A DNA stretch of 64,000 nt. Source: Dyadobacter sp. CECT 9275 (lineage in GTDB: Bacteria > Bacteroidota > Bacteroidia > Cytophagales > Spirosomataceae). Both the position numbers and the translations under genes were made by a program. The stretch spans positions 3,286,001 through 3,350,000 of the forward strand of contig NZ_CAJRAF010000002.1 of assembly GCF_907164905.1 (NCBI RefSeq), read 5' to 3'. Under the pieces are notes generated by a model. That model saw only the letters and a list, made by a program, of their open reading frames with translations. It had not been told where the DNA came from and made no database searches. Of the stretch, positions 14,095 to 24,125 are shown piece after piece (position 1 is the first letter of the stretch; every line of letters begins with the position of its first letter).

Positions 14095-15075
14095 ATGAAA
14101 AATTTCTTCCTGTTCTTTTCCACGGCTCTTTTCGTCTGGGCCTGCAGTACCGTTCCCGATCCCGCTTCCAAGGTATACTATATCACCGAAACCACCACGA
14201 CACGCCAGCCATCCGGAATTTGTGCTTTCAGATACAAAATTACCAATTCCTATTCCAGGCTCGACAACCAGAGTCAGCAGAATGCCGTAAGGGCAGCTTT
14301 TGATCTCTGGCAAAAAGGAAACCCTAACCTGCTGTTCCTGCAAAAGCAAGATGGCCTTACTACAGAAATCGCCATCCGGTTTGCCGAGCCCTCCGAAATA
14401 CCACAGGGCACCCAGAAAGCGCCGATCGGCTTGGTCCGCGGAAATATCCCGACCATCTCAGCACTGAAAGTGGACAACAATAATTATACCATCTTACTGG
14501 ATGCCAGTTTCCCTTGGGATACGCATGCCATTACCCGGGCGCTTTCGTTCCACATCGGAAAATTTCTGGGCCTGGAAATTTCTCCGGAAAACGGCTCCAT
14601 GATGAACCCTGTCTACCTGAAGGAAACCATCCGGTTGTCCGATGCCGACTCTGTCAAAATTAACGCGTTGTACAGCCTGCCATGTACCAGTGGCTGTAAC
14701 AATTTTCTTCCGCTGTCCTTACCGGTAAATGATATCATCACCAAAAGTATCCGATTAGACAAACAGGGGAAAATAGCCATCAGCGCATCGGGGCGTATGG
14801 TCATTGGTTTCTGGCTCGGATGGAGCACGCCAGCGGGTCTGGAAAATGGCCTTTTCAGCGTTCCCATCGGTGATTACAGCCTCGACAGATCCATCAACCA
14901 CGCCGCGCTCATCTACAGAATCAACAATGAAACGAAATGGAGATATTGCGGCACGGCCTGTGAATTCTCAACAGATGGGGTGAGCCAATGCATTGATGTC
15001 ACACTGGCTATCAACGACAACAAACCGAGCGACAACGACGGCGCTTACGATGTTACCGTTAATTACAAACCCTGA
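14095..15075 (+). CDS. Matrixin-fold lipoprotein with a degenerate zinc site and a PA-IL-like C-terminal domain
   Basis: 326 residues with a signal peptide ending in a likely lipobox (LFVWAC). Residues 60-190 follow the matrixin metalloprotease plan: a helix with AVRAAFDLWQ, strands, then SFHIGKFLGLEIS and the Met-turn SMMNP. The zinc motif HExxHxxGxxH would occupy 152-162, but the positions read F152, H153, K156 and I162; only Gly159 remains, so catalysis is not expected. Residues 225-326 resemble the calcium-dependent PA-IL (LecA) galactose-binding fold: GKIAISASGRMVIGFWLGW, HAALIYRI, then NDNKPSDNDGAYDVTV. It probably acts as a binding or regulatory subunit. It lies 9 bases upstream of the CHAT protease gene, so the two are almost certainly co-transcribed. 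Confidence 0.75.
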   Translation: MKNFFLFFSTALFVWACSTVPDPASKVYYITETTTTRQPSGICAFRYKITNSYSRLDNQSQQNAVRAAFDLWQKGNPNLLFLQKQDGLTTEIAIRFAEPSEIPQGTQKAPIGLVRGNIPTISALKVDNNNYTILLDASFPWDTHAITRALSFHIGKFLGLEISPENGSMMNPVYLKETIRLSDADSVKINALYSLPCTSGCNNFLPLSLPVNDIITKSIRLDKQGKIAISASGRMVIGFWLGWSTPAGLENGLFSVPIGDYSLDRSINHAALIYRINNETKWRYCGTACEFSTDGVSQCIDVTLAINDNKPSDNDGAYDVTVNYKP

Positions 15076-15084
15076 GTTTCCGGC

Positions 15085-17877
15085 ATGAAAAACTTGATGC
15101 TGCTGTTCATCGTGGCCTGGGCCTGCTGCATCCAGGCAGGTTATGCCCAGACAACGGTATATCTGCAAAACTGGCTGGAGGGTGAAAAACATGCTATTAA
15201 TGGGGAATTCGCCGAAAGCATGAAGTATTACCAAAAAGCCTACCAGGCCGTGGCGAAAACAGACCCTGTCCGCGCGGCCAATGTCTGCAACGACATGAGC
15301 AGCGCCTCCTATGGAGATGGCCTCTACGACCAGGCGCTGCGTTATTGTTACCGTGGACTGGCACATACCAAAAACCGGGCTTCCGTACCCGATTCCATTT
15401 TTTTTAAACTGTACTCCAGCCTTGGCACAATGTACAATGAAATGGAGCACCGTGATTCTTCATATTTCTATTTTCAATCTGCCGATGCAGTCTTAGATCG
15501 TACACCAATAGTTGAAAATCAAATACCAATATATGTTTTGCATCACTATTTGCATCAGGGTCGAGCCTTTTGGAAATTTCATAGATACCATCAAAGCATA
15601 ATCTACTTTTCCAAAGCCAAATCTCTCTGCCAGAATCACAAACTGACAAATGATTTGCAATATGTTGAAAGTAGCCTTGCTGAGGTTTATGATTTACTTG
15701 GACAACCACAAAAATCCCTAGTTTTCAGAATATCAGCAATTAACCACATTTCTTCTAATAATGACGAGTTAGAAAAACTATACACTGGTATCGGGTATAC
15801 CTACCAACAACTTAATCAAATAGACAGCGCATTAATTTGGCTAAAACGAGCGAGAAACGTTTCAATTTCACAAAGTTTGGAAAATAAAGCTGTAAAAAAA
15901 CAAGATATTCGCCTGCTTCTCCTCCTAGGACATTGCCATTCCAGTATTGATGATTTTAAGAACGCTGAGTATTTTTTAGACCTGGCGGAGTCTCAATTGG
16001 CTACAACTACTGGCAATTCTGCATGGGTAAGGGCAAACATAAATATAGAAAAAGGAAGAAATTCTCTTAAACGAAAAAACTACAACACTGCAGCTCTTTA
16101 TTTTGAGAACGCCTTTCAGAATACATGCTATAATCGTGATATCACTAATTTTTTTAATTTAATTCTCCCAGAAATTGGATTAAATGCATTATACCTGAAA
16201 GGCTATACTTATCATCAAAAATTTAATACTTCCGGTCAAATCACAGATCTTCTATTAGCTTATGAAACCTTCAAGAAACTAATAATTCTAAAAAAAACTG
16301 CATACCAGGAAGGCATAAATGATGCCGAGGAAAGATATACATTATCCAAAGAAGGCATAAATATATTTTCCGAGGCCATTCCGATAGCTTATACACTTTA
16401 TCAAATTAAAAAATCTCCGAAAATCCTGAACCAACTTTTTGAATGGTTTGAACAGGCCAATACCTCCTACCTGAACGACGCCATCAGCAACAAGAATTTG
16501 ACGAGAGAAAATCTCCCGGCAGCCTTACAAGCCGAAGAGCAAAAAATACTTAAGGAAAAGGCCCGGCTGATCGAAAAATCGGATCCCTCCTCAGCAGAAT
16601 ATCAGGAAAAACTGAACGAGCTAAGACTCAGATGGTACAAATTCAGCCAGAAATTAAATAAGTCGAATAAAACATCGGCCCTTTCGATCCGCCCTAAAGA
16701 AATTCAAAATCAGCTGGACCCCGGAGCTGCCTTCATCTCCTATAAATGGTACGGAGATCATATTTACACTTTTATAATTACCCGGGATACCTCCCGCCTG
16801 GAGGTTTTACCGGTTAATGCCAAACGATTACAAAACAATCTGGACCATTTAGAAGGACAACTACGTCACAATCCGGGTTTTGGGAAATATTCAGGGACCG
16901 AAGCTGCTATTGACTGTTACCGGCTATTGGTTGAACCCTTAAAAAAATGGGTTTCAGGTAAGAACCGGCTGATCATAGCCCGGGACTGGCGGTTTAATTT
17001 TTTACCTTTTGAATTACTTGAGACCGGTAAAAAAACACATGACTACCTCACACGGCAGTATGCCTTTTCCTATACCTATTCCGCTGCGTATTTCTGGCAG
17101 CATCCGTCACTGGCACAAAAATCAGGACAGTCGGCCACGCGTTCCAGCCTGATTGTCGCACCCTTTATAAACCAGTTAACAACGGAAGTCACAAAAGGCT
17201 GGGCACCTGTGGCCGACCTGGATGACCTGGACGACATGGGAGGGGAAAAACTGTGGGCGGAAGGAGCAACCAAACAGGCATTTTTAGACAAGGTGCAGGG
17301 GCAGCATGTGCTGCAGCTGGCCACGCATGCCCGGTCGGCAGACAACAACCCCGACGACTCCTTCATACAGTTTTATCCCGGCGGAGACAGCCGCCTGTAT
17401 CTGAGCGAAATATATGCTCTTCCGTTGCAGGACACCCGTCTGGTTATTCTGAGCGCCTGCTCAGGAGGAGAGGGTATGAGCAAAAAAGGAGAAGGCAATA
17501 TTTCCCTGGCACATGGTATGGTGCAAGCCGGCTGCCCCTCGGTGATCAGTACCATTTGGGAGGCCAATAATGAAGTAACCGCTTTCCTGACTAAAACAAC
17601 ATACCAATACTTAAAAAAGGGAATACCCGTAGACCTGGCCTTACAGCGTGCGCGAACTGATTTTTTTGATGATCCCGTGCTTAAAAAATTCATGCACCCT
17701 TATTACTGGGCCAATCTGACGCTCATTGGTAATTATGATCCTGTTTTTAACACGGGAACCGGATACCTGTGGTTTGGAATTGCGGGAGTGATCCTGATTT
17801 TAGCAATGATGTTATATATGATGAGCAAACGCTCCGGTAATAAAAAAAGTGGCCATACCGAACCGGATGACCACTGA
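15085..17877 (+). CDS. Exported, membrane-anchored TPR-CHAT cysteine protease
   Basis: 930 residues. A signal peptide (cleavage near GYAQ) leads to a TPR-rich region of roughly 450-500 residues, then a CHAT domain, the clan CD caspase/separase-like protease fold. The catalytic dyad is visible: His748 in LATHARS and Cys792 in LSACSGGEG. A single helix at about 893-913 and a basic tail follow, so the protease should face the periplasm while anchored in the inner membrane. Base composition is uneven: sample counts give 37/60 G+C at 15241-15300, 18/60 at 15841-15900 and 33/60 at 17341-17400, so the TPR part looks foreign to its flanks. The substrate is unknown; neighbouring tiny lipoproteins and membrane anti-sigma-like proteins are candidates. 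Confidence 0.9.
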   Translation: MKNLMLLFIVAWACCIQAGYAQTTVYLQNWLEGEKHAINGEFAESMKYYQKAYQAVAKTDPVRAANVCNDMSSASYGDGLYDQALRYCYRGLAHTKNRASVPDSIFFKLYSSLGTMYNEMEHRDSSYFYFQSADAVLDRTPIVENQIPIYVLHHYLHQGRAFWKFHRYHQSIIYFSKAKSLCQNHKLTNDLQYVESSLAEVYDLLGQPQKSLVFRISAINHISSNNDELEKLYTGIGYTYQQLNQIDSALIWLKRARNVSISQSLENKAVKKQDIRLLLLLGHCHSSIDDFKNAEYFLDLAESQLATTTGNSAWVRANINIEKGRNSLKRKNYNTAALYFENAFQNTCYNRDITNFFNLILPEIGLNALYLKGYTYHQKFNTSGQITDLLLAYETFKKLIILKKTAYQEGINDAEERYTLSKEGINIFSEAIPIAYTLYQIKKSPKILNQLFEWFEQANTSYLNDAISNKNLTRENLPAALQAEEQKILKEKARLIEKSDPSSAEYQEKLNELRLRWYKFSQKLNKSNKTSALSIRPKEIQNQLDPGAAFISYKWYGDHIYTFIITRDTSRLEVLPVNAKRLQNNLDHLEGQLRHNPGFGKYSGTEAAIDCYRLLVEPLKKWVSGKNRLIIARDWRFNFLPFELLETGKKTHDYLTRQYAFSYTYSAAYFWQHPSLAQKSGQSATRSSLIVAPFINQLTTEVTKGWAPVADLDDLDDMGGEKLWAEGATKQAFLDKVQGQHVLQLATHARSADNNPDDSFIQFYPGGDSRLYLSEIYALPLQDTRLVILSACSGGEGMSKKGEGNISLAHGMVQAGCPSVISTIWEANNEVTAFLTKTTYQYLKKGIPVDLALQRARTDFFDDPVLKKFMHPYYWANLTLIGNYDPVFNTGTGYLWFGIAGVILILAMMLYMMSKRSGNKKSGHTEPDDH
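17848..17875 (-). terminator. Terminator of lipoprotein copy 1, inside the end of the CHAT gene
   Basis: Imperfect hairpin (agtgg/ccact outer arms, inner cat/atg pairs) followed on the minus strand by a T7 run. It is the repeat-borne terminator. Here it lies within the last codons of the CHAT frame and sets its C-terminal residues. Confidence 0.6.
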
Positions 17878-17884
17878 TCAATAA

Positions 17885-18043
17885 TCAGGGATGACAGTTA
17901 GAGCCACCGCCGCAGTTGGATTTTGGTGGCTGGTCTGCATCTCCCTCAACCGATCGGGTGACCGTATTTTCAGGAGAAACACCTTGTTCGCTGCAGGAAG
18001 TGGCCAGAACCAACAGTAACATAAAACCAAGTAACGTTTTCAT
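17885..18043 (-). CDS. Tiny array lipoprotein, copy 1
   Basis: The open frame reaches 18088, but the ATG at 18041-18043 starts directly with a signal peptide. The 52-residue product has a hydrophobic core (LLGFMLLLVLATSC) with a clear lipobox. The mature peptide is only about 36 residues: an acidic, proline-containing stretch, a conserved VTR, then a tail with two Cys, here NCGGGSNCHP. No family is recognised. It converges on the CHAT protease gene, with stops 7 bases apart. It could be a secreted or outer-membrane-anchored signal, substrate or inhibitor; nothing in the sequence decides this. Confidence 0.85.
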   Translation of the reverse strand: MKTLLGFMLLLVLATSCSEQGVSPENTVTRSVEGDADQPPKSNCGGGSNCHP

Positions 18044-18091
18044 AATTAGGTATGGTTTACGGAACCTCCACCAGTGGAAGTTCCGCAAATA

Positions 18092-18119
18092 AGATACCAG
18101 GTTAGACTTTGAGATACCA
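18092..18119 (-). promoter_or_regulatory. Direct repeat upstream of lipoprotein copy 1, also before copies 2-4
   Basis: AGATACCA occurs at 18092-18099 and 18112-18119, a 20-base period equal to about two helix turns, some 50-75 bases before the start codon. The same pair is present upstream of copies 2, 3 and 4 but not of copy 5. It could be a regulator-binding site or part of the promoter; no clean TAnnTTTG element is seen nearby. Confidence 0.4.
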
Positions 18120-18161
18120 GATCTTTACCAAATTGTTAGTAAGCGGTCAGATAATAAAAAA

Positions 18162-18191
18162 AGTGGTCATCCCGAAAACAGGATGACTACT
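18162..18191 (-). terminator. Terminator of lipoprotein copy 2
   Basis: Arms agtggtcatcc (18162-18172) and ggatgactact (18181-18191) pair with one G-T; a T-run follows on the minus strand. Confidence 0.8.
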
Positions 18192-18200
18192 GATCAATAA

Positions 18201-18359
18201 TCAAGGGTGGCAGTTAGGTCTGCCACTGCAGTTGCCCTTTGGAGGCTGGTCAGGATCTTCTTCAACCAATCGGGTGACGGTATTTTCAGGAGAAATACCT
18301 TGTTCGCTGCAGGAAGTAGCCAAAACTAATAGTAACATAAAACCAAGTAACGTTTTCAT
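18201..18359 (-). CDS. Tiny array lipoprotein, copy 2
   Basis: 52 residues from the ATG at 18357-18359. The signal peptide and lipobox are identical in sequence to the other copies. This is the most divergent mature part: Ile replaces Val in EQGISPEN, Leu replaces Ser after VTR, and the tail is NCSGRPNCHP. The two Cys, the Arg and the Pro-Pro-Lys are kept. The start at 18404 in the same frame is unlikely, because it would put a basic stretch before the signal peptide. Confidence 0.85.
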   Translation of the reverse strand: MKTLLGFMLLLVLATSCSEQGISPENTVTRLVEEDPDQPPKGNCSGRPNCHP

Positions 18360-18477
18360 AATTAGGTATGGTTTACAGAACCTCCTCCAGTGGAAGCTCC
18401 GCAAATAAGATACCAGGTTAGACTTTGAGATACCAGATCTTTGGCAAATTGTTAGTAAGCGGTCAGATACTAAAAAA

Positions 18478-18507
18478 AGTGGTCATCCGGAAAACCGGAT
18501 GACCACT
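18478..18507 (-). terminator. Terminator of lipoprotein copy 3
   Basis: Perfect 13-base arms (18478-18490 and 18495-18507) with an AAAA loop on the plus strand; a T7 run follows on the minus strand. Confidence 0.85.
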
Positions 18508-18516
18508 GATCAATAA

Positions 18517-18675
18517 TCAAGGATGGCAGTTAGGACCACCGCCGCAATTATTTTTCGGTGGCTGGTCAGGATCTTCTTCCACTGATCGGGTGACCGTGTT
18601 TTCTGGAGAAACACCTTGTTCGCTGCAGGAAGTAGCCAGAACCAACAGTAACATGAAACCAAGTAACGTTTTCAT
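18517..18675 (-). CDS. Tiny array lipoprotein, copy 3
   Basis: 52 residues from the ATG at 18673-18675. Same signal peptide and lipobox as its neighbours; mature tail NNCGGGPNCHP after an acidic EEDPDQPP stretch. It has its own copy of the upstream region and terminator, so each array gene should be a separate transcript. Confidence 0.85.
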   Translation of the reverse strand: MKTLLGFMLLLVLATSCSEQGVSPENTVTRSVEEDPDQPPKNNCGGGPNCHP

Positions 18676-18794
18676 AATAAGGTATGGTTTACAGAACCTC
18701 CTCCGGTGGAAGTTCCGCAAATAAGATACCAGATTAGACTTTGAGATACCAGATCTTTACCAAATTGTTAGTAAGCGGTCAGATACTAAAAAAA

Positions 18795-18824
18795 AGTGGT
18801 CATCCGGTTTTCCGGATGACCACT
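18795..18824 (-). terminator. Terminator of lipoprotein copy 4
   Basis: Perfect 13-base arms (18795-18807 and 18812-18824) with a TTTT loop on the plus strand. The loop differs from the AAAA of copy 3 while the stem is identical, so the stem appears to be under selection. Confidence 0.85.
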
Positions 18825-18833
18825 GATCCATAA

Positions 18834-18992
18834 TCAAGGATGGCAATTAGGACCACCACTGCAGTTAGATTTCGGTGGCTGGTCTGCATCACCTTCTACT
18901 GATCGGGTGATCGTATTGTCAGGGGAAACACCTTGTTCACTGCAGGAAGTAGCCAGAACCAACAGTAACATAAAACCAAGTAACGTTTTCAT
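18834..18992 (-). CDS. Tiny array lipoprotein, copy 4
   Basis: 52 residues from the ATG at 18990-18992. Signal peptide as in the other copies; the mature part differs by PDN for PEN and ITR for VTR, and its tail is NCSGGPNCHP. The conserved Arg and both Cys are present. Confidence 0.85.
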   Translation of the reverse strand: MKTLLGFMLLLVLATSCSEQGVSPDNTITRSVEGDADQPPKSNCSGGPNCHP

Positions 18993-19111
18993 AATAAGGT
19001 ATGGTTTACAGAACCTCCTCCAGTGGAAGTTCCGCAAATAAGATACCAGGTTAGACTTTGAGATACCAGATTTTTGGCAAATTGTTAGTAAGCGGTCAGA
19101 TACTAAAAAAA

Positions 19112-19139
19112 GTGGTCATCCGGGAAACTGGATGACCAC
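19112..19139 (-). terminator. Terminator of lipoprotein copy 5
   Basis: Arms gtggtcatcc (19112-19121) and ggatgaccac (19130-19139), T-rich run on the minus strand after the stem. Confidence 0.8.
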
Positions 19140-19149
19140 CAACAAACAA

Positions 19150-19308
19150 TTACGGGTTACAGTTAGAGCCCCCGCCGCAGTTTGACTTCGGAGGCTGGTC
19201 AGGATCACCTTCAACCGATCGGGTGACCGTGTTTTCTGGAGAAACACCTTGTTCGCTGCAGGAAGTAGCCAGAACCAACAGTAACATGAAACCAAGTAAC
19301 GTTTTCAT
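19150..19308 (-). CDS. Tiny array lipoprotein, copy 5 (promoter-distal variant)
   Basis: Translating the minus strand from the ATG at 19306-19308 gives 52 residues with the same signal peptide and lipobox as copies 1-4 and a tail NCGGGSNCNP ending in Asn-Pro where the others have His-Pro; the stop is TAA at 19150-19152. Its upstream DNA departs from the other units right after the start codon and keeps only a short tggaagtt match. It therefore probably has a different promoter, shared with the divergent sigma factor region (158 bases between start codons). Confidence 0.85.
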   Translation of the reverse strand: MKTLLGFMLLLVLATSCSEQGVSPENTVTRSVEGDPDQPPKSNCGGGSNCNP

Positions 19309-19467
19309 AATAAAAAAGTTTAGAAGAAACTCCCCCCGTTGGAAGTTCTGGCCGTTAAGGGGAAGGCTACATTCACATTTCCCCCGGTTCAGGAAAAAAA
19401 ATTTCCGGCGGTGTTACTTTTTTTGGAGCAAGAGGAATAAACAGTTCAAACAGGCACTGCTCAGCAC

Positions 19468-20055
19468 ATGAAGCTTTTTACAGACCGAGAAATCGTTGAT
19501 GCAATATTTTCAAAAGAATCCAGGGCAGTGAATGCCGCTACCGAACAGGTGTACAAGCAAAACCAGAAGAGGATTACCCAGTTTGTGTGTACCAACGGAG
19601 GAACCAAAACGGATGCGGAAGATCTGTTTCAGGATCTGACGATCATATTTTTAAACAATGTATGGAATGAGAAATTCTCTCTTCGCGACAATGCCCAGAT
19701 CAGCACCTATCTGTACAGTATAGCGGAAAACCTGTGGTATAAAAAAATCCGCAGCTCAACCTCTGCACTTAGGCGCGAAAAGAACTACATGGACGACTTT
19801 CTCGCAGCCGCACCCGACCAGGACAGTCCTGTGCAGCAGGTGATTGCAAAGGAAGAGGAAAACTGGAGCCATGTCATATTCAATAAGCTCCGGACCGAAG
19901 CACAGGATGTATTGAAAGCATATTATGACGAAAAACTGAGCATGAGCGAGATAGCGATTCGCCTGGAATATACCAATGCAGATACCGCCAAAAACCGGAA
20001 ATACCGGGCCATGGAGGAATTGAAAAAGCTTATTAAAAAATTCAGACCGGAGTAG
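19468..20055 (+). CDS. ECF-type RNA polymerase sigma factor
   Basis: 195 residues. Region 2 spans roughly 25-95 with TDAEDLFQDLTIIFLNNVW and STYLYSIAENLWYKKI; region 4 is at about 135-190 with LSMSEIAIRLEYTNADTAKNRKYRAMEELKKL, a helix-turn-helix for the -35-like element. It should redirect RNA polymerase when released from an inhibitor. The gene starts a run of plus-strand genes, with the membrane TPR protein 49 bases downstream as the likely anti-sigma, and is divergent from the lipoprotein array, a possible target. Confidence 0.9.
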   Translation: MKLFTDREIVDAIFSKESRAVNAATEQVYKQNQKRITQFVCTNGGTKTDAEDLFQDLTIIFLNNVWNEKFSLRDNAQISTYLYSIAENLWYKKIRSSTSALRREKNYMDDFLAAAPDQDSPVQQVIAKEEENWSHVIFNKLRTEAQDVLKAYYDEKLSMSEIAIRLEYTNADTAKNRKYRAMEELKKLIKKFRPE

Positions 20056-20104
20056 TTCCCTGCCTGATTCACCGGTGTCACAACACTAAAAATCAACGAT
20101 ACCC

Positions 20105-20785
20105 ATGAGAAGACCAACCGACAAAACAGAAGAGCAGGAATGGATAGAACGTTATCTTGAGGGCAAAATGTCCGAAGATGAACGCAAACACTTCGAAACA
20201 GAATTAGCAAAGGACATTAACCTGTCAATGGACACCCAACAATTAAAACAAGCCCACCGCCTCATGAAAGAGGCTTTTCTGGAAGAACAGGCACTGGCTA
20301 CCGTCAGGCGCCTGCAGGCTGCCAGCCGCTCCCGCGAAAAAATCATTTACTGGAGCAGGTACCTCGCAGCGGCATCGGTAAGCGGCATTATTTTTGTCAC
20401 CTATCTTTCTTTAAGTATGCCCCGGTTTCCTGACTCGGAAAACGATTTCACGGTGGTCCGCGGGGCCAACACCACCACCATGCCGCTCAACCAGCGGGCC
20501 GTTTTCGATCAGTTTTTTGAAGGACAAGCACACATTGCCGAAGGGCAGTACATCCTGGCAGTCAGGAATTTTGAAACCGTATTGCAGTCCAGCGACCTGA
20601 GACCTTATTTTAAAGAAGCCGCCCAGTGGCATCTGGCGGTAGCCTATCTGAAAAGCGGGGATATCTCCCGTGCCGAAAATCTTTACCAAAGATTTGATCA
20701 TTGTACCGACTGCGAATATACGGTGGGCACAATGAACCGCTGGAAAATATGGTGGCAAATCCGCTGGAAAAAGTTGCTGCCATAA
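20105..20785 (+). CDS. Single-pass membrane protein with anti-sigma-like N-terminus and periplasmic TPR
   Basis: 226 residues. The N-terminal cytoplasmic part (IERYLEGKMSEDERKHFETELAKD) has the short helical look of zinc-less anti-sigma domains. One membrane helix lies at about 84-104. The periplasmic part has two TPR-like helical hairpins (FFEGQAHIAEGQYILAVRNFETVL, WHLAVAYLKSGDISRAENLYQRF). Position directly after an ECF sigma gene supports a role as its membrane anchor or inhibitor. The periplasmic TPRs could meet the TPR-CHAT protease encoded on the other side of the array; that is inference. Confidence 0.75.
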   Translation: MRRPTDKTEEQEWIERYLEGKMSEDERKHFETELAKDINLSMDTQQLKQAHRLMKEAFLEEQALATVRRLQAASRSREKIIYWSRYLAAASVSGIIFVTYLSLSMPRFPDSENDFTVVRGANTTTMPLNQRAVFDQFFEGQAHIAEGQYILAVRNFETVLQSSDLRPYFKEAAQWHLAVAYLKSGDISRAENLYQRFDHCTDCEYTVGTMNRWKIWWQIRWKKLLP

Positions 20786-20835
20786 GACTTTTATTAGTAA
20801 CTTAATGTCTCAATTAATAACCTTCCTGTGCCGTC

Positions 20836-22086
20836 ATGAAATTACCGTGGAACAGTTCCTCAAAGAACCTGATTCAACTGTTTCAAGCTACTGAAAAACC
20901 CACTGTAAACCAGATGGTAAGCCTGATTTCCGAATTTTTCGGAAAGGCGGTTTCCGGAGAAGTCAGGCAAATGGGCATTGATTCCCGTGATCACGAGCTG
21001 CTGCTCTACCGCGAAACCATGACTGAGCTTGCGGCATTGCTCAGAAACCAATATCATCTCTGGGAAAACTGGACCAGAAAAGAGGTGGACCGGCGTATCC
21101 CGGATATTGTAACTGCCACCGACTGGAAATTACGCATTCCTGGTTACCGTTATTCTCGGGAAGAAACGGGTACCTTGGGCAAACAGGGCATGGCGATCAT
21201 CAGAGCCTTGCCTGAGTCTCTGAGCGTATGCCTGAAAGACCGCAAGGAGACGGTCAGAAAAACCCTTGTCAGGAAATATGCCACCAAAACCGAGGATGCT
21301 CAAGCGGTTTCCGAACGCACCCTTCGATGTGTCATCACCCTCAAACGTCACCAGGGCTGGGGAAAAAACACCATTTTTACCTGGAGCAAAGACAGGGAAC
21401 TAAACCTGAAGTATACCCTGGTAGAAACCTATCTGTATGAGCAGCTCGCCTTATACTCCTTTGTTTTTAAGGAGGACAACAGGGCCGTTTTTATGGAGGA
21501 TATCCGTTATAAGTTAAAACAATATCTGATCAACAAGCTTTCTTCGCATCACCAGCGGGCTGAAATTGCGGAAGAAATCATACAGGAAATTCTTATTTCT
21601 TTCTTTGATAAAAAAGCCGGGTATGCCGCCCACCCCGAAAAGTTTTATGTAGATACCCGGCTCCATACCTATTTTATCAAACTGATTAAGGACAGCCGGA
21701 AACTCCGGAAGTACCAGGGCGAAGTGGATGACAACACCGAAGACCTTCCTTTTGATGAGCAATTTTTTTCCAGACAGGGCCATGAGGTATCCGCCAGTGA
21801 GATCATGGAGATCCTCCACCAGTGCCGGCTCTTGCTGGATGATAGCTGCAGGGAATTTTTTGAGCTCAGGTATTCCGAAAATTTTGCAGAACCGCTTAAC
21901 TATGAGGCAATGGCCGACATACTGGACCAAACGCCCAAAAAAGTGGAGAAACTTGCCGGGAAATGTAATGAAACTTTAAAAACTTCGATCATTGAAAAAT
22001 CTATTGAAAAGGGGATCGTGTTGAAAAAATCATGGACGACTACCAAAAAGAAAGACTTATCCGCGCCGCAAGAACCGGAAAACTGA
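20836..22086 (+). CDS. Long sigma-70-like protein with extended N-terminus
   Basis: 416 residues, about twice the length of an ECF factor. Residues 222-292 resemble sigma region 2 (AEIAEEIIQEILISFFDKK, LHTYFIKLIKDSRKLRKY) and 325-385 resemble region 4 (LLDDSCREFFELRYSE, LNYEAMADILDQTPKKVEKL). The first 220 residues have no recognised domain, although 145-200 look faintly like a second degenerate region 2. It probably acts as a divergent sigma factor, possibly autoregulated by its N-terminus. Its last 55 bases overlap the next gene, which suggests translational coupling to a membrane partner. Confidence 0.7.
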   Translation: MKLPWNSSSKNLIQLFQATEKPTVNQMVSLISEFFGKAVSGEVRQMGIDSRDHELLLYRETMTELAALLRNQYHLWENWTRKEVDRRIPDIVTATDWKLRIPGYRYSREETGTLGKQGMAIIRALPESLSVCLKDRKETVRKTLVRKYATKTEDAQAVSERTLRCVITLKRHQGWGKNTIFTWSKDRELNLKYTLVETYLYEQLALYSFVFKEDNRAVFMEDIRYKLKQYLINKLSSHHQRAEIAEEIIQEILISFFDKKAGYAAHPEKFYVDTRLHTYFIKLIKDSRKLRKYQGEVDDNTEDLPFDEQFFSRQGHEVSASEIMEILHQCRLLLDDSCREFFELRYSENFAEPLNYEAMADILDQTPKKVEKLAGKCNETLKTSIIEKSIEKGIVLKKSWTTTKKKDLSAPQEPEN

Positions 22087-22682
22087 CGGAAGAGGAGTAC
22101 CAACTGTATTACCAGCTGCTGGAAGAAAATCCCTCCCTTGCCCGTGACCTGGAATGGGAAGGGTTTATGGATGAGCACATGCCCTCTGCCGAAGATGCCG
22201 AGCTCTACGAAGCTACTGCCCGGCTCACCATGCCCGAAGAAACCCGGGAAGTATTTCCTATTGGTTACCGGTGGGCGGCTGCGGTCGTTTTGCTGATCAT
22301 AGGAGGCTGGCTTGTCTTTCAGTTTATCACTGATACCACAGGCCCTGAACTGGCATCGTCTGGCTTTCTGCGCTTTTACAGCGGGGATACCAGGCCCGAC
22401 AGCCAGCTGGGCTACGCAGAAGGCGATGGGCCGGTTGGCAGGCGTGGCTTAAAAATATGGAGAAACAGCAGGCAGCAGGACCTTGTAAATTACCAGTTTT
22501 GTAATGATACCCTACAGTTGTTCTTTCAGGATCTGGAGGATACGCTTCTGATTCAGAAAAGTTACCGGCTTGTCTACAAGACAGACTCCGCAGCTTTCAG
22601 CATGGTATCCGACAAGTATCCTGTGGTGGTGCTTGAAAACTGTACCGATAAACCTAAAACCCTCATCCCCGCCAGGCAGTGA
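22032..22682 (+). CDS. Single-pass membrane protein, putative anti-sigma partner
   Basis: 216 residues starting inside the end of the sigma-like gene in another frame. A helical acidic N-terminus (KLTEEEYQLYYQLLEENPSLARDLEWEGF) precedes one membrane helix at about 80-99, then a periplasmic domain of about 115 residues with mixed strands and no recognised fold. The layout (cytoplasmic helices, one helix, periplasmic domain) repeats that of the protein at 20105. It is therefore likely to hold or inhibit the sigma-like protein at the membrane. Confidence 0.7.
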   Translation: MDDYQKERLIRAARTGKLTEEEYQLYYQLLEENPSLARDLEWEGFMDEHMPSAEDAELYEATARLTMPEETREVFPIGYRWAAAVVLLIIGGWLVFQFITDTTGPELASSGFLRFYSGDTRPDSQLGYAEGDGPVGRRGLKIWRNSRQQDLVNYQFCNDTLQLFFQDLEDTLLIQKSYRLVYKTDSAAFSMVSDKYPVVVLENCTDKPKTLIPARQ

Positions 22683-22715
22683 TTAATTCCACTGCACCCG
22701 CTTATCTTACCATTT

Positions 22716-24125
22716 ATGAAAATACCTTTACTGACCCTGTCACTCCTTTTCTGTGTAACCACCACCTCTTTCTCCCAGAGCATGCTTCCGTGCAACTGCA
22801 ATGCCCTGAATGAAATCCCAAAAAATTACATGGCCGAAAAACAGGCCACTGAGTTGCTGAACACGTATATTGATCAGCTCTGGAAATATTCGAAGATCAG
22901 GAAGATACGTGACCCGTTTGTTGTCAAGGAAGCACTTTGTCCGTATGCCTTAACCGATATCTGCCTCACCAAGCTCCCTGATGGTACTGCGGAGAACGTC
23001 CGCCTGATTCTGTACAGTAAAGAGTTTCTTGAAGACCTGAATAAAGCAGGACAAACGGCTTCTTATGTAGACCGCCATGTATTACTGCATGAACTGGGGC
23101 ATCACGTATTAGGCCATCATAAAAATTCCAAAAGTATGGAAGCGCTTCTGTCAATCTACAAGCAGTCGGCCCCGGATCCTAAGGAATGGAGAAAATACGG
23201 AGCAGCCAACCCCATGGCCCAGGAACTTGAGGCTGATATATATGCCGTCTGGGCGTTGTCAAAGCTCGAAAAGGGTTTTACCGTGCAGCAACTGGTGAGC
23301 CAGTTCAATACACAGATACTCAATCAGAAGGATAAGGAAGCCATCGCCGCAAACCATAGCGACCACCCTCTTTTCCGTGACCGTATCGAGACCATGCGGA
23401 AGTTTGAGGCGCAGATGCTCCGGGCGCAAAGTAAGGTGGTGCCCCGGAAATACTTTTCGGATATTGCCAGCAGTGCCTATCTGGACCTGTGGCCCGACGC
23501 ACCAGTAATAGACATTGCCCTGAACGCCGGTATCGCCCTGGGCGGTATCACGGATTTTTCCTATGACGGAGAAAAAACGGATGGCTTTTTGTATCCGCCA
23601 AAAACGTTGAAAAGTATTTCAAATTACCATGCAGGTTTATCCATCACCCGGTTCCGGTGGGACAGGCATTGGCAACGTCATGTGGATATACAGTGGTCCA
23701 GGCATAAATATGGTACCACGGTACAAGGCGGTAGCGAAGAGCAGCTGATCGAAAAGTTTCAGGTGGATTACCTGACCGTCGCTCCAAGAATGACCTGGAA
23801 CAGTGCTACCGGCGGTAAAAAAGGTTCGTTCCAGGCACTTCGTGTGGGTTTAATAGCAGGGTTTGGTTTCAATTTCAGGATCCCCGCCGGGAAAATAAGT
23901 TATACCAATTACATCTCTGATGTGCCCACTCCCAAATCCAGGTTTACCCTCGGCCCAAAGGCGGTTGTTGGCGTATCACTTTTAAAGAAGACATTTTTAC
24001 CAAAAGGTGCCAATATCCTTTTCAGCTACGATCCGCAATGGATACGCCTGGATACCCCCGTGAAAACCTGTGTGATATCTCATAATTTGGAATGTACTCT
24101 ACAATACTCAATTTTTCGCCACTGA
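22716..24125 (+). CDS. M48-like zinc protease fused to an outer-membrane-type beta-barrel
   Basis: 469 residues with a signal peptide (cleavage near SFSQS). Residues 95-225 carry the M48 features: HELGHH with His125, Glu126 and His129, the third ligand Glu170 in ELEAD, and the SDHPLFRDRIETM segment. From about residue 255 the sequence alternates strands with aromatic ends (YHAGLSITRFRW, VDIQWSRHKYG) and ends in Phe-Arg-His, compatible with an 8-10 strand barrel or a surface beta-domain. The protease would work in the periplasm or at the outer membrane. It is the last gene of the sigma-led run, before a terminator, and may be the effector or a processing enzyme of the lipoproteins. Confidence 0.75.
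   Translation: MKIPLLTLSLLFCVTTTSFSQSMLPCNCNALNEIPKNYMAEKQATELLNTYIDQLWKYSKIRKIRDPFVVKEALCPYALTDICLTKLPDGTAENVRLILYSKEFLEDLNKAGQTASYVDRHVLLHELGHHVLGHHKNSKSMEALLSIYKQSAPDPKEWRKYGAANPMAQELEADIYAVWALSKLEKGFTVQQLVSQFNTQILNQKDKEAIAANHSDHPLFRDRIETMRKFEAQMLRAQSKVVPRKYFSDIASSAYLDLWPDAPVIDIALNAGIALGGITDFSYDGEKTDGFLYPPKTLKSISNYHAGLSITRFRWDRHWQRHVDIQWSRHKYGTTVQGGSEEQLIEKFQVDYLTVAPRMTWNSATGGKKGSFQALRVGLIAGFGFNFRIPAGKISYTNYISDVPTPKSRFTLGPKAVVGVSLLKKTFLPKGANILFSYDPQWIRLDTPVKTCVISHNLECTLQYSIFRH

Follow-up and report, generated by a model that had tools for sequence, protein, structure and literature searches.

Two settings have been described in which a CHAT-domain protease is encoded beside an extracytoplasmic function (ECF) sigma factor. 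In type III-E CRISPR loci, Csx29, which combines tetratricopeptide repeats (TPRs) with a CHAT domain, cleaves the inhibitor of an ECF sigma factor (PMC10028731). CHAT and subtilase genes have also been reported at ECF54 loci, which are described as working without an anti-sigma factor (PMC8999054). Here, we analyzed a locus of Dyadobacter sp. CECT 9275 (Bacteroidota, Spirosomataceae) at positions 14095–24125 of a stretch of 64,000 nucleotides (contig NZ_CAJRAF010000002.1, positions 3,286,001 to 3,350,000 of the forward strand), named hereafter the window, to which the coordinates of its genes refer. The locus encodes a predicted periplasmic TPR-CHAT protease (CHAT), an array of five tiny lipoproteins, an ECF sigma factor (SIG1), and an anti-sigma-like protein with one transmembrane segment (TM), MEM1. 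Four further genes flank this core: MAT, SIG2, MEM2, and a gene for an M48-like protease with a barrel.

As in the type III-E CASP system (Cas7-11/Csx29/Csx30/CASP-sigma), a TPR-CHAT protein with the His and Cys residues adjoins an ECF sigma factor and a candidate inhibitor, and the expected logic is cleavage of that inhibitor (PMC10028731). With ECF54, the likeness is one of gene context, CHAT together with subtilase (PMC8999054): loci paralogous to the present one are made up of a sigma factor, a membrane protein, an S8 subtilase, and CHAT. Since CHAT genes beside ECF sigma factors are already known from both systems, the locus is a variant of a known theme. Its arrangement is nonetheless real, conserved, and undescribed within the literature searched, which consisted partly of listings and beginnings of abstracts: no description of this system was found there, "CHAT domain" occurred with "anti-sigma" only in the type III-E study (PMC10028731), and "CHAT protease" with "Bacteroidota" gave nothing. 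The mechanism that we infer is that of a two-module envelope-signalling locus in which CHAT would act as the site-1 protease, cutting MEM1 and thereby freeing SIG1, a proposal to which we give an even chance.

CHAT, SIG1, and MEM1 form a conserved core

CHAT (15085–17877, plus strand, 930 residues) has a hydrophobic N terminus predicted to be a signal peptide, periplasmic TPRs, a CHAT protease domain (2.3e-42) with His748 and Cys792, and a C-terminal TM at about residue 890. Both catalytic residues are invariant in 13/13 aligned sequences and in 66/66 proteins of a wider set. SIG1 (19468–20055, plus strand) matches Sigma70_r2 at 3.9e-7 and TIGR02937 with 57.7 bits, above the cut-off of 42.9. 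MEM1 (20105–20785, plus strand) is composed of an anti-sigma-like N terminus, a single TM preceded by basic residues, and a periplasmic TPR domain. BamD-type TPR matches were obtained for 10/10 MEM1 members and anti-sigma family matches at E ≤ 0.05 for 7/10 (best 9.6e-6), both being weak against the curated cut-offs; for the window MEM1 the anti-sigma match has an E value of 0.008 and 16.2 bits, far under the cut-off of 100. The genes named by the initial annotation, including a dead matrixin site, His748 and Cys792 of CHAT, and the five-lipoprotein array, were all recovered at their coordinates with these sites by sequence and profile checks.

The window belongs to a genome of 7.2 Mb (G000), and its nearest relative is the locus of Dyadobacter sp. 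SG02 (L028 in genome G216). For comparison, 20 loci around matrixin homologues and 20 around other CHAT matches were fetched, together with 12 named loci and 38 around further matches picked by the MEM1 profile. Once duplicate named and unnamed records had been removed, 54 of the 62 MEM1 matches were covered by distinct MEM1-type loci, the eight others having E values of 1.6e-23 or worse. The 20 CHAT-picked loci consist of the window genome's second CHAT and 19 chosen matches, weaker ones and one with an internal stop having been omitted; L041 is counted both there and among the 54. Of 222 Spirosomataceae genomes, at least 56 contain a MEM1 match with an E value no higher than 1e-10. A class-wide draw of 395 genomes gave at least four matches, two within the family and two weak ones outside it (E 1.8e-11 and 1.9e-12). 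These genome-wide counts are lower bounds because a limited number of candidates was scored per genome. In this sample, the core thus looks confined to Spirosomataceae.

A CHAT gene lies within 9.5 kb of MEM1 in 51/54 MEM1-type loci. Of the remaining loci, L060 has no CHAT and a SIG1 in two pieces, L061 carries CHAT on the same contig 16 kb off, and the third is L082. Conversely, a sigma gene lies within 4 kb in 17/20 CHAT-picked loci, the others being L040, L043 (sigma gene at 6.7 kb), and L051; in these 20 loci, 18 sigma genes were counted in 158 kb near CHAT versus one in 177 kb farther off. The core occurs in differing orientations across many genera. The gene order proposed for comparison in other Spirosomataceae is indeed conserved across genera, and this recurrence, together with pairwise dN/dS values of 0.03–0.18 among the array copies, places the arrangement beyond chance. 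The co-occurrence predicted by the initial annotation was borne out for CHAT with SIG1-MEM1 and failed for the pair of CHAT and the matrixin-like protein as part of the core, since MAT is present in 13/33 loci of the lipoprotein-bearing clade and in 0/21 other core loci, and since L015 and L017 carry a MAT-like and an M48 gene with no CHAT in the 20 kb examined. The window genome itself holds a second CHAT (L040, 6485–9250; G000 C2, about 944484–947249) with no recognised sigma pair nearby.

A candidate SIG1 promoter of the form GTTAC-N-ATAAA is found at 19413–19441 on the plus strand. Similar sites precede SIG1 in 12/29 lipoprotein-bearing rows (1.6 expected) and in 10/21 other core rows (1.5 expected), and are found in 2/21 paralogous rows (1.5 expected); the pattern was picked after part of these sequences had been seen. 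Such a distribution suggests that SIG1 may be autoregulated. By eye, no GTTAC-type motif was seen upstream of the lipoprotein genes, a side that was not counted by script, so the earlier idea that SIG1 drives the array finds no support.

A conserved arginine in the MEM1 linker

The short linker between the TM and the TPR domain of MEM1 contains Arg119 (codon at 20459–20461), whose alignment column holds Arg in 44/54 loci; Arg is found within one column of it in 52/54, L013 and L081 being the exceptions. Among MEM1 residues 104–125, the runner-up column is that of Asp114 (36/54). Arg119 is accordingly placed, from its conservation and position, as the candidate cleavage site of MEM1.

The paralogous loci differ in this linker. 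In eleven of the 20 CHAT-picked loci an S8 subtilase gene lies between the sigma pair and CHAT; ten were called by Pfam and L050 by 93% identity and profile. The eleven anti-sigma-like proteins from the subtilase-bearing loci carry Met in the corresponding linker, whereas the five paralogues without a subtilase (L042, L043, L044, L058, and L059) carry Arg-Gly, both by eye. A profile of these subtilases found no match in the sequence fetched around the 54 core loci, nor in L040, L042, L043, L044, L051, L052, L058, and L059. The gene order in L045–L050 and L053–L057 is ECF sigma factor, one-TM anti-sigma-like protein, S8 subtilase, and CHAT; in several subtilase-type loci a gene of 204–205 codons adjoins CHAT, and its product matches RNase_T in L046.

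The two linker types are paralleled in part by CHAT column 829, which lies 37 residues past the catalytic Cys and holds Asp in 49/55 Arg-type and 3/11 Met-type proteins (L008, L020, L040, L051, and L052 fit neither set and were left uncounted). In separases, Arg binding is aided by an acidic residue that follows the catalytic Cys. The window CHAT has Asn829 beside Arg119 of MEM1 and five other Arg-type proteins lack Asp829, so this column is at best a partial marker.

An array of tiny lipoproteins

Five genes for lipoproteins of 52 residues occupy the minus strand between CHAT and SIG1, at 17885–18043, 18201–18359, 18517–18675, 18834–18992, and 19150–19308 (copies 1 to 5, with ATGs at 18043, 18359, 18675, 18992, and 19308). 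They are carried by a tandem repeat of 316 bp (17841–19313, 4.7 copies), and each is followed by its own terminator or terminator-like hairpin. That of copy 1 (17841–17880) has a T run and overlaps the 3' end of the CHAT coding sequence, where the tandem array also starts; the others lie at 18187–18166, 18507–18478, 18824–18795, and 19140–19111. Copy 5, head-to-head with SIG1, occupies the position of the single lipoprotein gene of most relatives.

This head-to-head arrangement is found in 30/33 loci with a MEM1 match of E < 1e-50, the exceptions being L060, L041, and L070, so that the tiny lipoprotein is, as had been supposed, a conserved partner, within one subgroup. Across loci, the lipoproteins have 48–105 residues with a mature part of 32–47 residues (79 in L066), composed of an acidic stretch, a Pro-Pro pair, a basic residue, and often terminal glycines. 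The basic residue follows Pro-Pro in 33/33 script-parsed sequences of 36 distinct lipoproteins, and the other three hold Pro-Pro-Lys by eye; the lipid Cys was placed by eye in four rows (L021, L065, and two window copies). The scan behind the list of 36 required Pro-Pro and missed L065, which was found by eye, and a scan free of this requirement yielded the same proteins. The latter placed a lipoprotein, always with Pro-Pro, at 31/35 sigma rows of the lipoprotein clade, which corresponds to 30/33 loci because L016 and L060 each give two rows. It gave no convincing lipoprotein in the 21 other core loci (two flagged, one with Pro-Pro, both spurious by eye) or in the 21 paralogous sigma rows (three flagged, spurious by eye). 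The mini-lipoprotein is a conserved partner for which Pfam and NCBIfam, searched with one window copy, gave no match. On the MEM1 tree, the lipoprotein label needs five changes versus 18 in shuffles; the starred branches force four changes and none of the bootstrap trees is explained by one. A fair reading of this pattern is that the lipoprotein may have been gained early and later lost in places.

Two tandem copies are present in each of L009, L011, and L012, and in the 105-residue lipoprotein of L066 (8509–8826) the Pro-Pro-Lys/Gly tail unit is duplicated within the protein. Most differences between the window copies are synonymous (pooled pS 0.39 and pN 0.056 over ten non-independent pairs), indicating that they are coding and under purifying selection. 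In the four full repeat units (17885–19149), the non-coding parts differ by 8.1% versus 17.7% for the mature coding parts. This low non-coding divergence, compared with about 39% at the synonymous sites of the five copies, may reflect either conserved regulation or gene conversion. A stable hairpin is predicted just before the start codon of copies 1–4 (z −5.0 to −6.5); before copy 5 the value is only −1.9, and the hairpin is weak or absent in most relatives, these shuffles being plain and not dinucleotide-preserving. A Thr-Arg pair had been singled out in the lipoproteins as a possible cleavage site for CHAT. It is restricted to the window copies and is absent from Dyadobacter sp. SG02, and the cleavage idea fails with this lack of conservation.

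MAT, SIG2, MEM2, and the M48-like protease form a second module

In the window, a second module wraps round the CHAT-SIG1-MEM1 core, with MAT on one side and SIG2-MEM2-M48 on the other. MAT (14095–15075, plus strand) is a lipoprotein of 326 residues with a matrixin fold (Pfam Matrixin 6.7e-11; karilysin and matrix metalloproteinase profiles in the PDB, 5.8e-13) and an extra C-terminal domain that matches by itself in other proteins. Its HExxHxxGxxH site reads FHIGKFLGLEI, and all zinc ligands are therefore gone. Of 23 aligned rows, 22 span the site, and none of these retains the zinc ligands or the catalytic Glu; no HExxH was found anywhere in ten MAT rows from eight of these loci. MAT thus looks like a true pseudo-protease family. 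A LecA-like reading of the C-terminal domain is not claimed, as no PDB sequence match was obtained at E ≤ 10.

SIG2 (20836–22086, plus strand) has 416 residues, of which the C-terminal half resembles a divergent ECF sigma factor (TIGR02937 at 6.6e-9, under its cut-off; sigma-like stretch at residues 228–383). Its structural model is of low confidence (pLDDT 69); each of the 30 best Foldseek matches is a sigma factor or a model that contains one, and no match reaches E ≤ 0.001. In Spirosoma telluris (L016, 3861–6235), both sigma genes are broken, SIG1 and SIG2 each lying in two reading frames, with the remainder of the locus present; this is either decay or an assembly error. MEM2 (22032–22682, plus strand) has one TM and a MEM1-like N terminus: hhalign relates it to MEM1 with a probability of 93.7 and an E value of 2e-7 over 97 columns covering the N terminus and the TM. 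It gave no useful match in Pfam or NCBIfam. The M48-like protein (22716–24125, plus strand) carries HELGH and ELEAD, the HELGH and ExxxD motifs being invariant in 14/14 aligned sequences, and scores 17.4 bits against Pfam M48, under the cut-off of 20.3. Its C-terminal part (residues about 264–468) is predicted to form an outer-membrane-like barrel (mean pLDDT 80); among solved structures, OprG and OmpW match it best (E 4.5e-6 to 3e-5).

Ten loci, the window among them, carry the full set MAT-CHAT-lipoprotein-SIG1-MEM1-SIG2-MEM2-M48; the contig end truncates MAT in L021, and the sigma genes of L016 are split as described above. In L015, L017, L025, L026, and L027, MAT-like and M48 genes stand together with no CHAT in the fetched 20 kb; a sigma-like gene adjoins them in L015, L025, L026, and L027, and a MEM-like gene in L017, L026, and L027. 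As MAT and M48 occur without a nearby CHAT, and CHAT-SIG1-MEM1 mostly without MAT, the two modules are separable. In one genus, several loci share neighbours of similar size next to MAT, judged by gene size only.

Proposed mechanism and alternatives

In the proposed mechanism, the anti-sigma-like N-terminal domain of MEM1, recognized through profiles, would hold SIG1 at the inner membrane. The exported TPR-CHAT protease, presumably anchored in the same membrane and exposing its TPRs to the periplasm, would receive an envelope signal and cut MEM1 in the linker between its TM and TPR domain, most likely at Arg119. By analogy with DegS-RseA and Csx29-Csx30, other proteases would then finish MEM1, and SIG1 would be freed. 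The tiny lipoprotein could be a lipid-tethered peptide whose conserved tail would serve, more speculatively, as ligand of the periplasmic TPRs of either CHAT or MEM1. A more elaborate version, which we consider doubtful, is that the lipid-tethered mini-protein sets the activity of CHAT as site-1 protease, its tail being read by the periplasmic TPRs; such a circuit would gauge lipoprotein sorting or envelope spacing, and repeated tandem amplification would tune the dose of ligand.

Cleavage of the predicted anti-sigma factor by CHAT is favored by the architecture of the proteins and by the conserved juxtamembrane Arg. Several observations weigh against it. CHAT and MEM1 are convergent genes in many relatives, where CHAT is thus not co-transcribed with the sigma pair. 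In L008 (5891–9564), MAT, CHAT, the lipoprotein, MEM2, and M48 are kept while SIG1, MEM1, and SIG2 are gone, and this natural deletion, in a genome (G075) outside the 56 with a MEM1 match, indicates that CHAT and the lipoprotein can persist without SIG1-MEM1. Besides the deviations at column 829, several more CHAT columns differ between the Arg- and Met-type sets, two proteins of the Arg-type set come from the loci whose MEM1 lacks Arg (L013 and L081), and the L052 linker has neither Arg nor Met in a locus without subtilase. The Arg/Met contrast may reflect ancestry, the Met set being possibly one lineage. Genome-wide, the strict promoter motif is rarer than its reversed control (3 versus 9 in the window genome, 5 versus 18 in that of strain SG02). 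Moreover, cleavage in the one TPR-CHAT system studied did not hinge on any single substrate residue, and the size of the loop had an effect (PMC10028731).

The persistence of CHAT with its lipoprotein in L008 and the separate, convergent CHAT transcript of many loci would suit another role for CHAT, that of a sigma-induced executioner or quality-control protease with the lipoprotein as its inhibitor or immunity partner. SIG1-MEM1 would then sense otherwise, through its own TPR or another site-1 protease, a part that the subtilase adjoining CHAT in the eleven paralogous loci could play. We regard this as rather unlikely: CHAT is kept in 20/21 core loci without the lipoprotein, which makes an obligatory inhibitor improbable, the near-invariant juxtamembrane Arg of MEM1 is left unexplained, and the PADLOC matches of seven locus proteins are only at chance level (E 0.005–0.009), for which reason a known anti-phage defence system was also rejected. 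Less probable still is that the lipoprotein is the main substrate of CHAT, its cut tail releasing a pheromone-like or effector peptide and the array resulting from selection for dose. The basic residue after Pro-Pro throughout the lipoproteins, the tandem copies in four loci with the doubled tail unit of L066, and the purifying selection on the window copies are in line with it; against this stand the absence of the lipoprotein from 21/54 core loci, 20 of them with CHAT, and the lack of a fixed cleavage motif, the window Thr-Arg not being conserved. The lipoprotein is more likely a regulator or an output than the main CHAT substrate. A very improbable alternative is that unrelated neighbours of a stable region are co-inherited by linkage. 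The add-on genes do come and go, as the MAT counts show, and neighbours of similar size recur beside MAT in one genus, but the reading is largely refuted by the recurrence of the core in different orientations across many genera, the concentration of sigma genes near CHAT, and the head-to-head lipoprotein retained in nearly all loci of its clade.

If CHAT does cleave MEM1, these caspase/separase-like proteases would be a class of envelope sensor that recurs in this Bacteroidota family, serving ECF sigma factors outside CRISPR, and for which a candidate cleavage residue can be named. The anti-sigma linker may also match the protease set, with Arg where CHAT is alone and Met where a subtilase joins it, and such matching would open the specificity of proteases in sigma switches to direct tests.

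Comparison with known systems

No Cas match was found by PADLOC among seven locus proteins, the rest of the window and genome not having been searched for cas genes or arrays. Matrixins of family M10 such as karilysin share with MAT the profile match over the catalytic domain, whereas MAT lacks their HExxHxxGxxH site. The M48-like protein retains the HExxH and ExxxD of peptidase M48, with a Pfam score under the gathering cut-off. The predicted circuit resembles DegS-RseA-sigmaE in its membrane anti-sigma factor with a periplasmic linker, its envelope site-1 protease, and its ECF sigma factor; unlike DegS, a serine protease with a PDZ domain, the site-1 candidate is here a CHAT cysteine protease with TPRs. 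In DegS-RseA-sigmaE, the C termini of outer-membrane proteins act at the place where the tethered small lipoprotein may stand here. The one-TM anti-sigma-like MEM1 that follows SIG1 sets the locus apart from ECF54, described as working without an anti-sigma factor (PMC8999054). Finally, unlike in type III-E systems, CHAT has here a C-terminal TM in addition to its predicted signal peptide, the candidate inhibitor is a one-TM protein, and a tiny lipoprotein accompanies them as partner.

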